From IMG/VR virus record IMGVR_UViG_3300030419_004818, positions 1 through 28,660 of that record: 28,660 bases of DNA, one strand, 5' to 3'. Position numbers and translations under genes: made by a program. Origin of the DNA: a virus. Positions within the stretch are counted from its first letter, which is position 1, and every line of letters begins with the position of its first letter. Below are positions 3,662-21,171 of the stretch, in pieces. Under the pieces are notes generated by a model that was not told where the DNA came from, searched no databases, and worked only from the letters and a program-made list of their open reading frames with translations.

Positions 3662-3690
3662 ATTGTAGGGCTGCTTAACCAATCTCTCAA
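3662..3690 (-). promoter_or_regulatory. sigma70-like promoter for ssb
   Basis: On the coding strand TTGAGA (3690-3685) and TACAAT (3667-3662) are separated by exactly 17 bases, each one base from the TTGACA/TATAAT consensus. The predicted transcript would start around 3655, just before the AAGGAG ribosome site of ssb. A host-type promoter here suits early expression of the replication and recombination genes. Confidence 0.65.
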
Positions 3691-3708
3691 GCAACTGAAG
3701 ACAGTATA

Positions 3709-3966
3709 CTACACTGACTCCCAGTTGTCAAGAGAATTATCTTCAAAAGTTTCTGGTTCTGAAATGGTTGTTTTCCAATTGAAAACACGAAATGCTTTAC
3801 TTTCAAGGTCCCAGACCACTTCCATGCCGGGTGGCATGGTTTTTTCCTTGTTGCCGCCTTTGACCTTCTCTTCTAAAAACAGCTTTGGCAGGTCACAAAG
3901 TTTTGCAAACTTCATTTGCCTGACTTCACCGTTTTTCTTCTCAAATGCTCCGATATATGCCTTCAT
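3709..3966 (-). CDS. Small WYL_2-like (Sm/SH3 beta-barrel) protein
   Basis: 85 residues, starting MKAYIGAFEKKNGEVRQMKFAK with a strong AGGAGG site six bases upstream. The pattern of a charged 'KKNGEVRQMKF' strand, then 'DLPKLFLEEK', then 'MEVVWDLESKAFRVFNWKTTI' resembles the phage WYL_2 (DUF2693) family, whose conserved core is a V/Y-D-x-x-x-x-x-R-x-F strand near the C-terminus. This family is common in T4-like replication blocks and of unknown function; a regulatory or nucleic-acid-binding role is only inferred from the Sm-like fold. It starts eight bases after the FtsZ-like gene and is probably cotranscribed with it. Family assignment is by eye and moderate. Confidence 0.6.
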   Translation of the reverse strand: MKAYIGAFEKKNGEVRQMKFAKLCDLPKLFLEEKVKGGNKEKTMPPGMEVVWDLESKAFRVFNWKTTISEPETFEDNSLDNWESV

Positions 3967-13390: not shown

Positions 13391-16072
13391 TTACCCACCA
13401 TTCAGAGCAACTTCAGTCCTATCTTTCATATGTTCAAAAGCCACCTTACCAAACACATCCTTATCAAACTTAAAAGTAAATTCAAAAGGACCGTCAATTC
13501 TTCTTCTACCTCCGGGGGAGCCACCGCCGGCTGTGGTAACAGTGATTTTTTCAGTAACCTTGACCAATTCTTTTAGCATTGTAGCTGTAGCATTAACACC
13601 AGCAACCTTGGTTGCATCAACGCTGGTCACCGATTGCATTATTTCTTTAACGTCTTGATTGTGGGGTCCTGCTGCGGCTGCAGAGTCAAGTACACCACGA
13701 ACTTCGCCAAATACACCACTCATTGCAGTGATCTTCGCATCAGATAGCTCCCCTAGTGACTCAAAAGCGCCTGAGAAGGCTTCTATCTCTGATATACGGG
13801 CTCCAAAGCCAGAAAACGCATTCATCATCGCAGCAATGGACGCAACTAGTGCAGCGTTGGCACCAATCACCAGAGCCATCGATGTAGCAATAGGTAACAA
13901 CGCCAACCCTAGGAGCCCAAGAGGTGCTGCAGCTGCTGTACCGGCTGCGGCAAGGATGCCCAACGCAACGGCAAAACTAACAAGCACAGCTGCACCAATC
14001 AACATGATGTCAACAAATGCGTTCAATTGTTCGCTGTTTAAATTCTGTATTGCTGTGGCCATGTGAGCAACACCCGCAGACGCCATATAGATTGCTGCTC
14101 CAACTGATACAATAATCATTGCTAACATAGCGCCAGTGCCTAGGCTTGCATACATAGCACCCTTCATAGCGGCCATACCTTGTGCTGCATTAAGGCCAGA
14201 AGCTGCAAAGGTGTTAAGGGCGACGGAGGTAGAGCCAACAGCAGGTATAATCTTGCCGGCTAGCAGCATCCCAAGTCCACCAAGAAGCCCCGTTATGAGA
14301 GATAAACCAGCCGGTATAATCAACAGACCCAACGCATGAGACCACCATGATTCACCCTCTTCTGGTAAAACATGATCTATCAAGTTTATAAGTGTATGAG
14401 CAAACATAGCCAGTTTTTCAACAACCGGCTCTAGTTTTGGTGACAACTGCATGAAAGCCCCCATTAATTTTTGTACAAAAGTTTTACCAAGCTCAACACT
14501 CTTGTTCCACTCCTCTTGTGACTTTTTATTGGCTTCGGCTGCTTGTCGCATCTCCTGGGCCTTGATGGTGTTACTAAACAACATCGTAGCCTCGTTCATG
14601 TCGGTTATGCCCATTTTGTTTGCAATTGCCATCTTCTGGAACTTATTCATACTGTCCCATTGCAAGCCAGACATCCTAATGGAGTCTTGCATGGTTTTAA
14701 TTCTTTCGGACTCGCTTTTGCCCAGCATGTCAACTGTGTTTAAGTATGGGCCACCGAGTAATGCGTTCAACGAGCCAACTGCCTCTGCTGCACCTTCAAT
14801 TGTATCAAACTGCCCTGCAGCCGACATCATGGTTTCCAGAGACACGCCTGTTTTAGCAGATATGTATTGCAACTCTTTAAATACTCTTGTTGCATCTTTC
14901 CCATATCTGGCTAACTGAGGCATGAGGGAATTAAACTCACTAATAACCTGATTAACATTTTTATTCATGGTATCGGCAAGATGAGCAAACTCTAATGTAA
15001 TATTCTTGACTTCTTTTTCGCCTCCGCCAAAAGCTTTAAAAACTGTAGATGAAAGTTTCGCTGCATCTGCCCCTGCAATACCAACAGCAGACATCTGTGC
15101 AGTAAATGCTGCCAGCCTCCCTTGTGTCGCTTGGCTAACGGTCATCAATCCCGAGAAATTAGCTCTAAGGTCCTTAAACGCTTCGGCGTTTTCTTCTAGG
15201 GAAACATGAAGTTTGGCGTTTTCTCGCCAATTTCGCTCAATAGATTCTCGATACCGATCCCCAGTTCCTGTTGCAGCAGCAAAGCTAGCTGTAACGCCAT
15301 CAAATACTGTAACAGCGGCTACGGCTTGTTGAACAAGTTTCTGCATACCTGAAATGAAGCCTCGTAGAAGACCCATTTTAAAACCACCGGTAATATTAAT
15401 AATAGACTGACCTAGAGTTTTAAGAACATTGCCTTGTTTAGCAACTTCCATAAAAGAGCCAAGAAAAGTGTCTTCAAAATTGCCACTAATACCAGTAACA
15501 ATCTCAAGCATTCTACTAAAATGGCCTTCTAGGATTTTGGCAGGTTGTCGTGCCTTTGTTGTAGCTTTTTCGAACTTTCTCATCCCCATTGAAAGATCTT
15601 CAACGCTTTCGGATGTATTCTCTACATCTTCTTTGATAGATTCAAACCACACAGCAGCTTCATCAGCGGAGTCCACTATGTCTTCTAGATTTTTTAATTG
15701 ATTTTGTAAAACTCTTTCTTGCTTTTTAGAAATGTCAAATAATTCATCTTCTAGTAGTTGTCTAGCTTGTGTCTGAGTAAGGGTGCCATGAAGACCTTCA
15801 TTTATCTCATTTTGCAACCCAACTAATTCTTTAGCCTTTTTTCCTAATCGCTCTTGGGCCTTTTCCACTAAATCTTCCGATTCTAGGATATCTTTTAAGG
15901 CCCCCTTCCACTCTCTATGTTCTTTATTGACCGATTCTAAATATTCCTGAATTTTTTTGTAACTGTCAGCTGTTTCTTTTATATCTGCTGGTGACATACG
16001 ACCAGACGCAGCTATCCTTTCTAAAAGATCTCTAAGGCCAGAATCTCCACCACCGCCTGTATTGTCTGCCAT
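13391..16072 (-). CDS. Tail tape measure protein
   Basis: 893 residues. The N-terminus (MADNTGGGGDSGLRDLLERI) leads into about 150 residues of charged coiled coil, then long helical segments rich in Ala, Gly, Ser and Met. Strongly hydrophobic stretches fall at about 585-620 (LLIIPAGLSLITGLLGGLG), 650-685 (AMLAMIIVSVGAAIYMASAG) and 700-770. These are the segments expected to insert into the host membrane during DNA entry. The length sets the tail length through a helical ruler inside the tube. It sits after the gp26-like/frameshift gene and the 108-residue gene, the usual place for a tape measure downstream of its chaperones. The small C-terminal domain has a Gly-rich loop (TTAGGGSPGGRRRI). 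Family assignment by composition and context is secure. Confidence 0.92.
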   Translation of the reverse strand: MADNTGGGGDSGLRDLLERIAASGRMSPADIKETADSYKKIQEYLESVNKEHREWKGALKDILESEDLVEKAQERLGKKAKELVGLQNEINEGLHGTLTQTQARQLLEDELFDISKKQERVLQNQLKNLEDIVDSADEAAVWFESIKEDVENTSESVEDLSMGMRKFEKATTKARQPAKILEGHFSRMLEIVTGISGNFEDTFLGSFMEVAKQGNVLKTLGQSIINITGGFKMGLLRGFISGMQKLVQQAVAAVTVFDGVTASFAAATGTGDRYRESIERNWRENAKLHVSLEENAEAFKDLRANFSGLMTVSQATQGRLAAFTAQMSAVGIAGADAAKLSSTVFKAFGGGEKEVKNITLEFAHLADTMNKNVNQVISEFNSLMPQLARYGKDATRVFKELQYISAKTGVSLETMMSAAGQFDTIEGAAEAVGSLNALLGGPYLNTVDMLGKSESERIKTMQDSIRMSGLQWDSMNKFQKMAIANKMGITDMNEATMLFSNTIKAQEMRQAAEANKKSQEEWNKSVELGKTFVQKLMGAFMQLSPKLEPVVEKLAMFAHTLINLIDHVLPEEGESWWSHALGLLIIPAGLSLITGLLGGLGMLLAGKIIPAVGSTSVALNTFAASGLNAAQGMAAMKGAMYASLGTGAMLAMIIVSVGAAIYMASAGVAHMATAIQNLNSEQLNAFVDIMLIGAAVLVSFAVALGILAAAGTAAAAPLGLLGLALLPIATSMALVIGANAALVASIAAMMNAFSGFGARISEIEAFSGAFESLGELSDAKITAMSGVFGEVRGVLDSAAAAGPHNQDVKEIMQSVTSVDATKVAGVNATATMLKELVKVTEKITVTTAGGGSPGGRRRIDGPFEFTFKFDKDVFGKVAFEHMKDRTEVALNGG

Positions 16073-16085
16073 TTACAAAACTCTC

Positions 16086-16412
16086 CTATTTAAAAGGCCA
16101 CTTAAGTCCAGTTTCTTTCTCAAAATTTGCGACAGCATCTTTTAGTCGGTGTTTAGTTTGATGAGTCTTGGGGTCGTTTAGGCCATGCTTTGAAAATGCA
16201 TCAATAAAGCGCCTTTCTCTTTCTAGTGTTTTCGCGAAAGCCCGAATCTCAGAAGGGGTGCCCTTTACTGTGACAGGAATCTCAACACCTGAGAACATAT
16301 GACTTAAAATACCTTTAATTGCAGAACCAAAAGAAACTAACCAGCTTTCAGTAAGCAGATTTTGGCGATCAGCACTTAAATCAATTACAATAGCATTCTC
16401 GTTGTTGTCCAT
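16086..16412 (-). CDS. Conserved unknown protein before the tape measure
   Basis: 108 residues: MDNNENAIVIDLSADRQNLL, then TESWLVSFGSAIKGILSHMF, GTPSEIRAFAKTLERERRFI and a basic/helical C-terminus ending ETGLKWPFK. I do not recognise a named domain, but the pattern 'SADRQNLLTESWL...FAKTLERE+R++DA...GLNDPKT' is familiar from proteins next to T4-like tape measure genes. It starts after a GGAGG ribosome site nine bases upstream and a CTATTTATA element, so it opens the transcription unit that includes the tape measure and baseplate genes. A role in tail assembly is inferred from position only. Confidence 0.8.
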   Translation of the reverse strand: MDNNENAIVIDLSADRQNLLTESWLVSFGSAIKGILSHMFSGVEIPVTVKGTPSEIRAFAKTLERERRFIDAFSKHGLNDPKTHQTKHRLKDAVANFEKETGLKWPFK

Positions 16413-16428: not shown

Positions 16429-16440
16429 TATAAATAGTTT
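16429..16440 (-). promoter_or_regulatory. CTATTTAT element before the 108-aa/tape measure unit
   Basis: Coding strand AAACTATTTATA, 16 bases before the ATG and directly before the GGAGG ribosome site. One of seven matching elements before structural genes; a candidate late promoter. A leader starting here would have almost no room before the ribosome site. Confidence 0.5.
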
Positions 16441-16488
16441 TTTATTAAATAATTATTAATCTTACAGACAGAACGCCTGTTTTTAGAG

Positions 16489-16695
16489 TTATTTTGATGA
16501 TTTACTTTTACGCATGGCTTTTTCTTGTTCTTCATTTTCTTTTTTGAACTGCTTATCAAGTCTATGTATAAACCACCTACGTAGGGAGATTGGTAAATTA
16601 TAAGCCTCGAAAAAGCTCCAATTGCCATGATACTTTAAAGTAAACAATTCTTCGTAAACAGCGGCGATGTAATCATCGCCGTGGCCAAAAAAAGT
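16489..16695 (-). CDS. Frameshift extension of the gp26-like gene (tail chaperone-like)
   Basis: In the frame one base downstream of the gp26-like frame, sequence is open from 16695 to the TAA at 16491-16489. It encodes GHGDDYIAAVYEELFTLKYH, then GNWSFFEAYNLPISLRRWFI, then HRLDKQFKKE and a basic tail (65 codons after the T-run). The aromatic 'FFEAYNLPISLRRWFIHRL' helix and charged tail look like real protein and resemble small T4-like tail assembly proteins. There is no ATG, GTG or TTG that could start it before the conserved part: the only codons between the in-frame TAG (16698-16696) and GHGDD are ACT TTT TTT. It overlaps the end of the gp26-like gene at a run of seven T. I infer it is made as a fusion by +1 (or -2) frameshifting, giving about 358 residues. 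A homopolymer sequencing error is the alternative. Confidence 0.65.
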   Translation of the reverse strand, partial: TFFGHGDDYIAAVYEELFTLKYHGNWSFFEAYNLPISLRRWFIHRLDKQFKKENEEQEKAMRKSKSSK

Positions 16696-17566
16696 CTACT
16701 GTGAAAGGAATGTCAATTACTTGCTCGTAACCGCAACCTTCACAATCATAGGGGTGCTTAAGTTCAATGTTTGGCATGATCTTAGCATATACAGTCCTCA
16801 GATGACGAGCATCCAGGGCCGGCATTATATCTATGAAGCTATTAATATCTTGTCTATCAGTATTACCATCAACTGAAACAATAAATGATTTAAACTGATC
16901 AGTCAAAGGAGAATCTGGAAGTTTGTGTGCTTGTTTTTTCTGAGACATCTTTAAAAGTCTCTTTTCGTCAGCACCCGTTAACAAACGAACTTCCACAGGC
17001 ATTCCAGTTTTTGGCAAAGTTAAAGAAAATACGCCACCGCCAACGGGGGTCACGCCTTGCACATTGTCGCCTCGGTTCATAACAACTGCGTCGTCTAAAT
17101 CAAAATTATGATCGTCAGTTGATCCACAAGATGGGCAAGTAATTTTTGTATTATACTCTTCGCCATACCCCGTCACCCGGGCTGCGACGATCAAAGCATT
17201 CTTATCACCTACAAGCAAAGAATCTAATTTAATACGCTTATCAACAATGACTCCTTGCAGCAGTCGGTCAACAGCCGTTCCTTTTTTAAGAAACGTTCGC
17301 GAATTAAGTATATCTTCGTCTTTAGCTGTCATGTGTCTAATTTCAATTTCATCTACCCCGCGTAAAGGGTGTCCCTCTGGGTAGTGTTCTCCCAACGAAG
17401 GAATGGTAACTATTTCAGTTGGCACAGCATAAGAAAGCGGACCAGTTGTAGCATCAACCGGGTCACTTTGAAAATTTGTATTTGAATTATCTACCATTGG
17501 AGGGACAACGGGTGGATCCGCGTTTGGGGTGAATGACCCAATGCGGTCAGCGTTGTTTCTTGACAT
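16673..17566 (-). CDS. 26: gp26-like T4_baseplate family protein (tail assembly)
   Basis: 297 residues. After a disordered Pro-rich start comes PSLGEHYPEGHPLRGVDEIE and IRHMTAKDEDILNSRTFLKK, then GTAVDRLLQGVIVDKRI and NALIVAARVTGYGEEY: the pattern of the T4_baseplate family (gp26 and relatives). A four-Cys zinc ribbon is visible, CPSCG near residue 140 and CEGCG near 282. T4 gp26 was classed as a baseplate hub component; its place just before the tape measure and the frameshifted extension suggest it is the T4-type counterpart of siphophage tail assembly chaperones. The zero-frame product ends DFFWPRR at a TGA six codons after the T-run begins. It lies 25 bases after the tail tube gene, with AGAGGA before its ATG. 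Confidence 0.85.
   Translation of the reverse strand: MSRNNADRIGSFTPNADPPVVPPMVDNSNTNFQSDPVDATTGPLSYAVPTEIVTIPSLGEHYPEGHPLRGVDEIEIRHMTAKDEDILNSRTFLKKGTAVDRLLQGVIVDKRIKLDSLLVGDKNALIVAARVTGYGEEYNTKITCPSCGSTDDHNFDLDDAVVMNRGDNVQGVTPVGGGVFSLTLPKTGMPVEVRLLTGADEKRLLKMSQKKQAHKLPDSPLTDQFKSFIVSVDGNTDRQDINSFIDIMPALDARHLRTVYAKIMPNIELKHPYDCEGCGYEQVIDIPFTVDFFWPRR
16685..16694 (-). promoter_or_regulatory. Candidate slippery site: seven-T run in the gp26-like gene
   Basis: Coding strand GAC TTT TTT TGG CCA: a run of seven T (16693-16687) just before the gp26-like stop. tRNA-Phe in TTT could slip +1 (TTT to TTT) and continue GGC CAC GGC GAT GAT in the extension frame; slipping -2 reaches the same frame. Six T instead of seven would fuse the two frames outright. 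Confidence 0.55.
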
Positions 17567-17591: not shown

Positions 17592-18107
17592 TTAAGCGAG
17601 TTCTGCCCAATCATATCGCAAGGTCATATCGATGTTAACAAGGTCATCAGACTCATAGTCCAGACCACCAAAGTCAATTGATTTAATCCAAGCATTTCGT
17701 AAAAACCATTTATCTTTCTCAGCGCCATCTTGACCAAACTGAGTAAGGGTCACCTGACCGAGGACCGTGCTTGCCGCTGCCTTACTAATAGTTTGCATCA
17801 CAGCGGATTCACTTTGGTCATACGGCATAGCGTATCCCATCAGATTCAATACAGCCATCAGGCCAGCGCTAGCATCAGGAGTTACTGGGTCTACCAAGGT
17901 TACCGAAATCTCTTCCCACTCAACCCTGCCGGGGAAATAAAAAGTATGATTTAAATACTTATGTGAAGACTCCGAAATTGAAAATTTAGGTTTATTAGCT
18001 GTTTTTACAATCCAGGTCGGCACCTGATTGTCAATCGTTGGAAACTGTAATGTCCAGCGAAACTGTCTTTTAGGTTCTACCTGCGCATCTGCCCATTTCA
18101 AGCCCAT
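17592..18107 (-). CDS. 19: Tail tube protein, gp19-like
   Basis: 171 residues, near the 163 of T4 gp19. Characteristic features are FRWTLQFP at the start, TWIVKTANKPKFSISESSHK, the strand FPGRVEWEEISVTLVDPVTP, and a C-terminus WIKSIDFGGLDYESDDLVNI ending in DMTLRYDW. These match the T4 gp19 tail tube family. Hexameric rings of this protein stack into the inner tube contracted through by the sheath. AAGGAG lies ten bases before the ATG. The gene is 64 bases downstream of the sheath gene; the gap carries a CTATTTAT element, so the tube probably has its own start signal besides read-through, which suits its high copy number. Confidence 0.95.
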   Translation of the reverse strand: MGLKWADAQVEPKRQFRWTLQFPTIDNQVPTWIVKTANKPKFSISESSHKYLNHTFYFPGRVEWEEISVTLVDPVTPDASAGLMAVLNLMGYAMPYDQSESAVMQTISKAAASTVLGQVTLTQFGQDGAEKDKWFLRNAWIKSIDFGGLDYESDDLVNIDMTLRYDWAELA

Positions 18108-18140: not shown

Positions 18141-18152
18141 AATAAATAGTTT
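18141..18152 (-). promoter_or_regulatory. CTATTTAT element before the tail tube gene
   Basis: Coding strand AAACTATTTATT, 33 bases before the tail tube ATG in the 64-base gap after the sheath gene. Same orientation and same A-rich 5' flank as the other copies. Confidence 0.55.
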
Positions 18153-18171
18153 TTTATTTAAATTTTTAATT

Positions 18172-21171
18172 TTAATCCTCGAAAGACGCGCCTTCGTTGG
18201 TGATCACAAAATCAATTGCAATAAACTCAATCGCCTTAGCAGGCTTCAAGAAGATTTTTGCATACATGATGTTTCTGTCAACCAAATCGGGAGTCGTCGT
18301 AGTTTCATCAAGGATCACGCGATAATCACTAAGACCAAATCGCGATTGGACCGTTGACAAGAACGGATTAACTCTACTCAAGAATCGGTTCCAAGTAGCT
18401 CCAACATTCTGGTCAAACAAGATCGTTGCAGCCATTCTAGAAACGCGCTTCTTAATAAAGTTCATCAAACGTCGGACATTAATTCTATCCAAGGCAGATG
18501 GCGTCACTTGCAGTGTCTTCTGTCCGAAAGCAACAATTCCTTCAGCTGGGAACGATGCAATTGGGTTAATATTTGCAAGATAAAGCTTATCTCTATCTCG
18601 CGTTGCCAAACGCTCTCTGACGGCTGTTACTGGAATTCCAGCGGCACCTGCAGTCAGGCCACCACGTGTAAACCCTGCAGGGGCAAACCACAACTCGTGG
18701 AAAGTCTCCGTAGACCCCATAACACCTAACATTGGAACCGATGGCGGTGCCCACAATGTATTACCATTGATAGTGTCACGTATCTGCACCCATGGGTAGT
18801 ACATGCATGCATAACTACTATCATAAGCGCGTGTAGTCATGGTGGACACAATGTCGGTCACACCAGTTGTGGAAACTTGGCCTCCAGCATATTCTGCAGG
18901 CGGCTTGTACCCGTCAGGTGGGTCTAGGATGGCCAACATATCGGCCCGGTCCTCACAAACTTTAATCATGTGTTGTTGTAAGTTCTGGTTTTTCAACCCG
19001 GGAATGGCCAAGAGATTGCCCTCAACGGCCTCTGGGTCTGCGACCGAATCAATTGCTCTTTTGTATGAATTAAACACATAGCTATCAGTCTCAGTAGACG
19101 TGCTGCCAAGCAACGTATCGTTATGTGCAAATGGATCCATTTTGGTCACATCCGCACCATCAAACCCACCGATCAGAGGAAGAGTAAACTTGTCAAACCC
19201 TTTGTCTAAAACATCTTCCCAAGAGCCGGAAACGGAAATATTGGGAGTAGTAGTAGATGTTGTACTAGCTTGTCCAACGCGGCTTCCGGCAATCCATTTG
19301 GCGTTGCGTTGCAATGCGTTAGTAGAAGTACCAGCTGCACCAGTTAAACACAAGTCATTCAATGAAAACACAAAAGAGTGCTCTAAATAACTTTGCCCGG
19401 TTCCACCAGCATCATACGAATCAAAGGTAGAAGCCTTCGGACGAACTAAATCTAAATATTGAGCCGATGAACGAGTTGAATTTTTAATATTAGTTTGAAT
19501 ACCAAAATATGCTTTTCTGGGGTCGGACATGTTGCCTTCAGTGCTAGTAGATCTAAGTCTCATCTCCGGAAAGAGAATATTCATATAAAAATCACTAATA
19601 TCGTCGTTTTGACTAGGGGCGATATCAATAAATGGGTTGCGTCCACCGAACATAGCCGTACCACCACTCATGATAGAGTCGGAAGTGGCCAATTCAACGT
19701 TACCAACGCCATTTTGATCAACGTCCGTAAATTTCCATTGGACAGTTTTAAATCGTGGTGGGCCATAAAACCCAAACGGAAGATATCGCTCATCCGTCTC
19801 ACCAACGTCAACCTGTGTGTTCATTTCCATACGAACATAACGTGACATATTCGGGTAATTGCCCTTCATACGATAACGTCGTTCCGTTGTATCCCAATCA
19901 AGTCTCATATCACCGACTTTTTTGGCTACATAGTCAGGCGAACCAGGATTCATTGTACAGTTACTAAACCGCTCAACAAACTGTACAGCATTATCAAGAT
20001 CTGCCCTCTTCCTAAGCACAATTGTGAAACTGCCATATGGGTTGTTTGGGTTTGTAGACTTTCTAATATCTTGAATAGAAATTTTTAAATTTTGTGATTC
20101 CCACTCGCCGCTATTCAAGGCCACAAACCTAAATAATTTTTGAACTCCTACTGGAGAATCGCCAGAGCCATCACTCCCAGTTGGATTGTAACTAGCAGCA
20201 TTTGTTGTGATATCCTGAGAGAAAACCCATGGACTCTTTGCAGGTTGCGCAGCCATCTTAAAATCATTCGCACGAACGGCGCTTCCGGAATAAAGAGGCA
20301 AAACACAGGCATAATAATCAACGTCAGTATCGCTGTATTCTTTCTTAGTCACAAAGAATTCATCGAGCCAATCTTCATAACTTTCACCAAGCCAATACTC
20401 TTGTGGGGCAGTCCGTGTGCCATTAATAGAATCTGTTAACGTAGGATTGGTATTAAAAACCTTCCTAATGAATTTGTTACTAGTGTCATCAAAATTGAAA
20501 TTTGTTGTCAATGCGATTGCACCGTCTTTATCTCGTACAACGGCCTTAAATTCATATGAAGTGTCACTTTGTGCTTTGACCAGTACGTTTGAGCCAGATG
20601 TGTCGGTTGTTCCTGCAGAATCAGCAGGATTGTCAACATCATAAATGGTACCACTTAATTCAATACTACCAGAATTAACATACCAAACAGCGGCTAATGT
20701 TCCACTAGCATATGTGGCGGCTGTTAAGTTAGCAGAAGAAGAGGGAACAATGAACATACCAAAAGCGCCACCATTAGAGCTTGCAGCTGCATTGGGTGCC
20801 GTATTCGTAGTTGTCCAGCCCGGTGTTCCATTACCGGCTTCACCATCTAAGTGTTTTTCGCCTAAAAGTCGGACAACAGTCACTGGACCGTTGTTTCTTA
20901 AATATGCATGTGCTGCATAGGCAGCATAAGTGGGAGAAGTATAATTGCCGTTTCGCCAGACGTCACCTCCGCGACCTCCTGGAATTGGATTCCCAAAGAT
21001 ATTAATAAACTCCGACATTGAATTCACTCGAGTAGGTCGCATACCAGGACCTCGCTCTGTACGACCAATAATTACTGGCCCTATCCTAGCTGACGTTGCC
21101 GGAACCTGTGAATTGTCAATTTCGTCAATAAAAATTCCCGGGGAAACAAATTTGAATTTTCTTTCTGACAT
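18172..21171 (-). CDS. 18: Tail sheath protein, gp18-like, oversized
   Basis: 999 residues against 659 in T4. The N-terminus KFVSPGIFIDEIDNSQVP followed by GPVIIGRTERGPGMRPTRVN is the typical sheath start (beta strand that links to a neighbouring subunit). The C-terminal 150 residues, from GIVAFGQKTLQVTPSALDRI through INVRRLMNFIKKRVSRMAAT to NEGASFED, form the conserved inner sheath domain, including the AKAIEFIAIDFVI strand. The central part, about residues 110-780, is a large Ser/Thr/Asn/Gly-rich insertion region likely to form extra surface domains. AAGGAG lies ten bases before the ATG. The sheath contracts to drive the tube through the host envelope. Confidence 0.95.
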   Translation of the reverse strand: MSERKFKFVSPGIFIDEIDNSQVPATSARIGPVIIGRTERGPGMRPTRVNSMSEFINIFGNPIPGGRGGDVWRNGNYTSPTYAAYAAHAYLRNNGPVTVVRLLGEKHLDGEAGNGTPGWTTTNTAPNAAASSNGGAFGMFIVPSSSANLTAATYASGTLAAVWYVNSGSIELSGTIYDVDNPADSAGTTDTSGSNVLVKAQSDTSYEFKAVVRDKDGAIALTTNFNFDDTSNKFIRKVFNTNPTLTDSINGTRTAPQEYWLGESYEDWLDEFFVTKKEYSDTDVDYYACVLPLYSGSAVRANDFKMAAQPAKSPWVFSQDITTNAASYNPTGSDGSGDSPVGVQKLFRFVALNSGEWESQNLKISIQDIRKSTNPNNPYGSFTIVLRKRADLDNAVQFVERFSNCTMNPGSPDYVAKKVGDMRLDWDTTERRYRMKGNYPNMSRYVRMEMNTQVDVGETDERYLPFGFYGPPRFKTVQWKFTDVDQNGVGNVELATSDSIMSGGTAMFGGRNPFIDIAPSQNDDISDFYMNILFPEMRLRSTSTEGNMSDPRKAYFGIQTNIKNSTRSSAQYLDLVRPKASTFDSYDAGGTGQSYLEHSFVFSLNDLCLTGAAGTSTNALQRNAKWIAGSRVGQASTTSTTTPNISVSGSWEDVLDKGFDKFTLPLIGGFDGADVTKMDPFAHNDTLLGSTSTETDSYVFNSYKRAIDSVADPEAVEGNLLAIPGLKNQNLQQHMIKVCEDRADMLAILDPPDGYKPPAEYAGGQVSTTGVTDIVSTMTTRAYDSSYACMYYPWVQIRDTINGNTLWAPPSVPMLGVMGSTETFHELWFAPAGFTRGGLTAGAAGIPVTAVRERLATRDRDKLYLANINPIASFPAEGIVAFGQKTLQVTPSALDRINVRRLMNFIKKRVSRMAATILFDQNVGATWNRFLSRVNPFLSTVQSRFGLSDYRVILDETTTTPDLVDRNIMYAKIFLKPAKAIEFIAIDFVITNEGASFED

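Follow-up and report, generated by a model that had tools for sequence, protein, structure and literature searches.

How the gene for a gp26-like tail protein ends, and how a reading frame that overlaps its end in another phase is expressed, is the question raised by this locus of an uncultured phage. The window analyzed here is the whole 28,660-base IMG/VR record IMGVR_UViG_3300030419_004818. It stems from a far T4-type phage, whose major head protein is a member of phrog_138 and has its nearest relatives in an uncultured phage record, Microcystis phage Mel-JY01 and Flavobacterium phage immuto. The tail genes lie on the minus strand in the order sheath (18172-21171), tail tube (17592-18107; phrog_4542 tail tube, E 4.6e-21), gp26-like ORF (16673-17566, 297 aa), extension (16489-16692), an ORF of 108 aa (16086-16412) and a putative tape measure protein of 893 aa (13391-16072). 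The last assignment is based on position, as in immuto, whose annotated tape measure gene follows the extension; sequence-based identification of the 893-aa protein gave no match. The family search with the 108-aa ORF also gave no match, and Mel-JY01 has an annotated small ORF at its place. An earlier note on this DNA had placed the gp26-like gene directly before the tape measure block; the order is correct, but the 108-aa ORF intervenes. Two overlapping ORFs in different frames are accordingly found between the tube and the putative tape measure genes, as looked for in a TAC-N/TAC-NC pair of tail assembly chaperones. Two AT-rich intergenic stretches upstream of the 108-aa ORF (16430-16464) and of the tube gene (18142-18174) are alike (86% over 33 nt, AAAAAACTATTTAT...) and are followed by a Shine-Dalgarno (SD) sequence and an ATG; they are possibly promoters.

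The gp26-like ORF ends on the minus strand with ...GTA GAC TTT TTT TGG CCA CGG CGA TGA. Its run of seven T (T7, 16693-16687, 0-frame TTT TTT TGG) represents the candidate slippery site, which is conserved in 239 relatives in the forms given below, and the TGA (16675-16673) is the end of the short product. This stop had been described as lying just after the T7 run; run and stop are present, but the TGA follows four codons downstream. An open +1 frame runs from TTT TTT GGC CAC GGC GAT GAT TAC to the TAA at 16491-16489 and encodes an extension of 67 residues including FF at the junction (FFGHGDDYIAAVYEELFTLKYHGNWSFFEAYNLPISLRRWFIHRLDKQFKKENEEQEKAMRKSKSSK), which gives a fused +1 product of 358 aa. 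The in-frame TAG noticed before ahead of the conserved part of the extension was found at 16698-16696, two codons before the slippery TTT, hence independent initiation upstream is ruled out in the window phage.

The relatives comprised 239 IMG/VR loci with both parts (184 distinct junctions) and, as a second collection, 11 complete, more distant loci from prokaryote assemblies; identity is 41-56% over the gp26-like part for the former and 34-46% for the latter. The same frame relation was found in 80 of 80 loci in a first scan. In the full sets, a homologue of the extension stands in the +1 frame at the same codon in all 239 IMG/VR relatives and in all 11 distant loci, which is far beyond chance, and the isolate genomes of Mel-JY01 and immuto agree with the window. 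The earlier note had suggested comparing the T-run and the frames in related genomes, and had regarded a relative with a single continuous frame as evidence against a frameshift; the +1 relation and the slippery site are kept in 250 of 250 relatives, and not one of the 239 and 11 loci has a fused continuous frame. Judged from these sequences, the frame relation very probably reflects a real genetic signal rather than an error of sequencing. A close relative of the window tail gene is also borne by CP070664, the 2.8-Mb 'chromosome' of a WOR-3 MAG, indicating that viral DNA, whether integrated or joined by misassembly, is part of this MAG.

The strongest synonymous constraint of the whole gene was observed at the junction, which takes the top four places when columns of conserved amino acids are ranked by codon bias. 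CCT was used in 71 of 72 cases (0.24 expected), GAG in 64 of 64 (0.39), GAC in 56 of 56 (0.34) and CCG in 55 of 72 (0.14), and the two junction Phe codons are TTT with a single exception (71/72 and 70/70, 0.76 expected). The nucleotide profile of 27 diverse sequences is near-invariant from the first T of the run to GGCC(T). Among the 239 loci, TGG is preceded by TTT TTT in 217, by TTC TTT in 11 and by TTT CTT in 10, while one variant junction reads TTT TTT TTT. The combination TTT TTC was never found before TGG in the 239 loci, although TTC makes up 24% of the Phe codons, and this absence would follow if slippage demanded a YUU codon in the P site with U as the next base; in fact, a P-site codon able to re-pair one base downstream (YUU_U) is present in 239 of 239. 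Mapped onto the tree of 184 proteins, the variant junctions must have arisen several times, with well-supported branches forcing at least four changes to CTT and at least seven to TTC. A canonical -1 heptamer X_XXY_YYZ with an extension in the -1 frame was not found in the window or its close relatives, all of which have the extension in the +1 frame. Hence, the codon use at the junction indicates that the shift is very probably +1, by P-site slippage on YUU_U.

Possible stimulators were found on both sides of the slippery site. An SD-like 5-mer occurs upstream of T7 in 169 of the 184 distinct sequences (anti-SD energy z about -7), with a spacing of 17 nt in 122, of 24-26 nt in 44 and of other lengths in three; it is absent from the remaining 15, among them the window. 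The spacing of 17 nt or more is unusually long and resembles that favoring backward shifts, which counts against +1. In the window, an 8-bp stem-loop (CGGCGATG-ATTA-CATCGCCG, 16662-16681, minus strand) is predicted by RNA folding 5 nt after T7, with a fold z of -3.7, and with z -5.3 at -15.6 kcal/mol in a 45-nt test. It is a possible downstream stimulator peculiar to the window phage: the 184 sequences gave no sign of general 3' RNA structure after T7 (mean z -0.12), and the 8-bp hairpin was found in no other SD-less sequence. The Rfam search of the window gave no match. That the hairpin replaces the SD-like element in the window phage is a guess from one case.

The frame relation could in principle arise in other ways. 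The T-run is a homopolymer and loss of one T would fuse the frames, so that a sequencing or assembly indel in the window contig, left open by the earlier note, would create the same picture. However, the identical relation in 250 separately assembled relatives as well as in the isolates Mel-JY01 and immuto excludes this explanation for the family and makes it exceedingly improbable for the window itself. Alternatively, the extension might be an independent small gene that starts within or after the gp26-like gene, as suggested by the small ORFs annotated here in Mel-JY01 and in cyanophages (gp51), by an ATG at extension codon 7 in many relatives and by an in-frame TTG at 16647 in the window, which could begin an ORF of 52 residues. 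The previous statement that the extension has no start codon therefore holds upstream, while downstream this TTG does exist, though it is not conserved, and a start there would lose the conserved N-terminal part of the extension. The same applies more generally, because none of the starts found is conserved, and initiation at them would cut off the invariant FFG...Y...VYE part. Ahead of the slip, no start in the extension frame exists in 11 of 72 sequences including the window, where the TAG blocks it, and the downstream starts vary, with none common to all 72. The search for a start codon in relatives, regarded before as potential counter-evidence, thus revealed no conserved one. Since the nucleotide-level constraint on the slippery codons also argues against an independent gene, we regard it as very improbable.

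A Mu-like -2 shift of the ribosome, also mentioned in the earlier note, deserves somewhat more weight, because -2 and +1 lead into the same frame, T7 allows -2 re-pairing from UUU to UUU, and the distant upstream position of the SD-like element recalls dnaX-like backward shifts. A -2 shift would permit TTC as second and forbid it as first codon, but the opposite was observed: at the 11 loci with TTC TTT TGG, the tRNA that reads UUU would have to move onto UCU, whereas TTT TTC TGG, tolerable to -2, was never seen, and all observed junctions allow +1. The permitted codons point to +1, and a -2 shift appears unlikely. Slippage of RNA polymerase on T7 would produce mRNAs with one base lost or two gained and would need no ribosomal shift at all; the conservation of the 7-T homopolymer in most relatives is in line with it. 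However, the run is broken to T3 or T4 (TTTCTTT, TTCTTTT) in 21 loci and independently in immuto with the frame relation kept, and transcriptional slippage is as improbable as an independent gene.

Collectively, the data favor, with a probability of roughly 0.87, a conserved programmed +1 frameshift yielding TAC-N and TAC-NC from one gene. The frame relation in the relatives thereby supports the suggestion of the earlier note that the gp26-like protein and the extension are fused by a programmed frameshift. What the sequences themselves show is the conserved frame relation and the constraints on the codons; from these we infer slippage and its direction, and the efficiency and the chaperone function are likewise deduced. 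Most ribosomes would terminate at the TGA, and the short gp26-like protein that they make would be TAC-N. A minority would stall with Phe-tRNA on the P-site UUU and UGG in the A site, slip one base forward on U_UUU from the UUU at 16690-16688 to that at 16689-16687, and continue in the +1 frame. The resulting TAC-NC would consist of the gp26-like protein with a helical C-terminal domain of 65 residues. By analogy with lambda gpG/gpGT, TAC-N and TAC-NC would both cover the tape measure protein, and the C-terminal domain would bring in the tail-tube subunits.

The assignment of the two products is related to their protein families and predicted folds. The gp26-like ORF belongs to T4_baseplate PF12322 (E 9e-17, 61.9 bits compared to the Pfam cut-off of 24.5) and matches the baseplate hub family phrog_150 (E 4.8e-19). 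The gp26-like part and the extension were folded separately with AF2. In the model of the former (pLDDT 88), residues 36-143 show a modest resemblance to tail assembly chaperone folds, the best PDB matches being 3fgx, 3klu (YqbN) and 2ob9 (HK97 tail assembly chaperone) with Z of 6.6, 5.9 and 5.6, which is above unrelated structures and below 8; for the HK97 chaperone, the structural similarity is weak (Foldseek E 0.2, prob 0.87). The extension is modelled as helix, short helix and long helix (pLDDT 90), without a match among the PDB folds. Pfam DUF6760 is weakly matched by 41 of 44 extensions in the alignment (best 5.9e-5), with the window extension below the cut-off, and DUF6760 may represent the same C-terminal chaperone domain. 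In T4, gp51 is covered by PF12322 over residues 1-201 and by phrog_150 to its C-terminal end, and gp26 matches the first part only; on these sequence matches, gp51 and gp26 are the long and the short form encoded by separate genes. The C-terminus of T4 gp51 gave no detectable match to the extension profile, hence the two correspond by position only, and the link between them runs through cyanophage gp51 and is weak in sequence. The gp26-like protein most likely represents the tail assembly chaperone TAC-N, and its fusion TAC-NC, given the site between the tube and putative tape measure genes, the PF12322 plus C-terminal part of gp51, and the PDB matches including the HK97 chaperone.

In a cyanophage-type sister group, all 76 distinct junctions of the homologous gene have U_UUU_UUC, with the extension following in the -1 frame. 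As in the window clade, Synechococcus phage Bellamy (extension at 3678-3881 of the examined locus) and its IMG/VR kin have an extension at the same place (phrog_634/150), which lies in a different frame with an FF codon pair at the junction and matches the extension profile weakly. The differences are the -1 frame and its annotation as a separate gp51, 'baseplate hub assembly catalyst'. At 18 of the 76 cyanophage-type junctions no start codon for this gp51 was found in the stretch examined, and from its sequence context it looks like a -1 frameshift extension of gp26 and not like a separate gene. The U_UUU_UUC heptamer was also seen by eye in the jumbo phages RaK2, CBB, PA5oct and Atu_ph07, while Alishewanella phage Slickus01 has no clear extension. 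A +1-frame extension after the gp26-like gene exists as well in SP-15, LIS04, SagM-GXN1 and BRock, phages of Gram-positive hosts; their candidate slip sites differ (YCC_CGA or UUU_C) and their matches to the extension profile are weak. Tentatively, and at somewhat less than even odds, the window clade might use a distinct class of bacterial +1 signal, YUU_UGG with a conserved SD-like element at an unusually long spacing of 17 or 24-26 nt and a hairpin instead in the window phage; homologous chaperone genes would then have switched direction (+1 versus -1 at U_UUU_UUC) while the Phe-Phe junction was kept.

A large uncultured T4-type clade appears to retain a frameshift in the gp26 homologue, in the less common direction for tail chaperones, and the +1 and -1 versions of one gene offer a natural series to study how shift direction evolves. 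The extension, like cyanophage gp51, is often missed or misannotated as hypothetical protein, intergenic gap or separate truncated gene. In prfB, encoding release factor 2, the SD sequence stands 3 nt from the slip codon and UGA occupies the A site. The window clade shares CUU_U among its permitted slip codons (10 loci) but differs in the distance of the SD-like element (17-26 nt from T7, and none in the window) and in UGG instead of a stop in the A site, so that a prfB-type signal is absent. Several T4-like groups reportedly keep frameshifting while T4 has separate genes 26 and 51, as the abstract of the study by Vladimirov and co-workers is said to state. Tail chaperone frameshifting is classical, and T4 was long listed as an exception among long-tailed phages for G/GT (PMC5009743). 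The comparison with lambda G/GT drawn in the earlier note is apt, although lambda gpG/gpGT is produced by a -1 shift (Xu, Hendrix, Duda 2004) and the window clade would shift +1. For the haloarchaeal myovirus HSTV-2, a 'very likely +1 frameshifting' has been described for the tail chaperone (PMC5009743), which agrees with the direction proposed for the window clade; this is an archaeal virus, and the likeness considered here is that of shift direction. The chaperone genes of T4-like phages were identified by Vladimirov, Gautam and Davidson (2022, Virology 566:9-15), a work to which PMC10885494 and PMC12846349 refer for two points, namely that some T4-like phages encode the short and the long form separately and that others carry poly-T -1 signals; poly-T is given as a known -1 signal in their TAC-N genes (PMC12846349). 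According to these accounts, the T4-like chaperones share with the window clade the homologous family (PF12322; T4 gp26/gp51), the pair TAC-N and TAC-NC and the poly-T slippery site, whereas the window phages form another clade that very probably shifts +1 at YUU_U. Measured against what PMC10885494 and PMC12846349 relate, frameshifting in T4-like tail assembly chaperones has already been published, and the new part is the conserved +1 form in the window clade.
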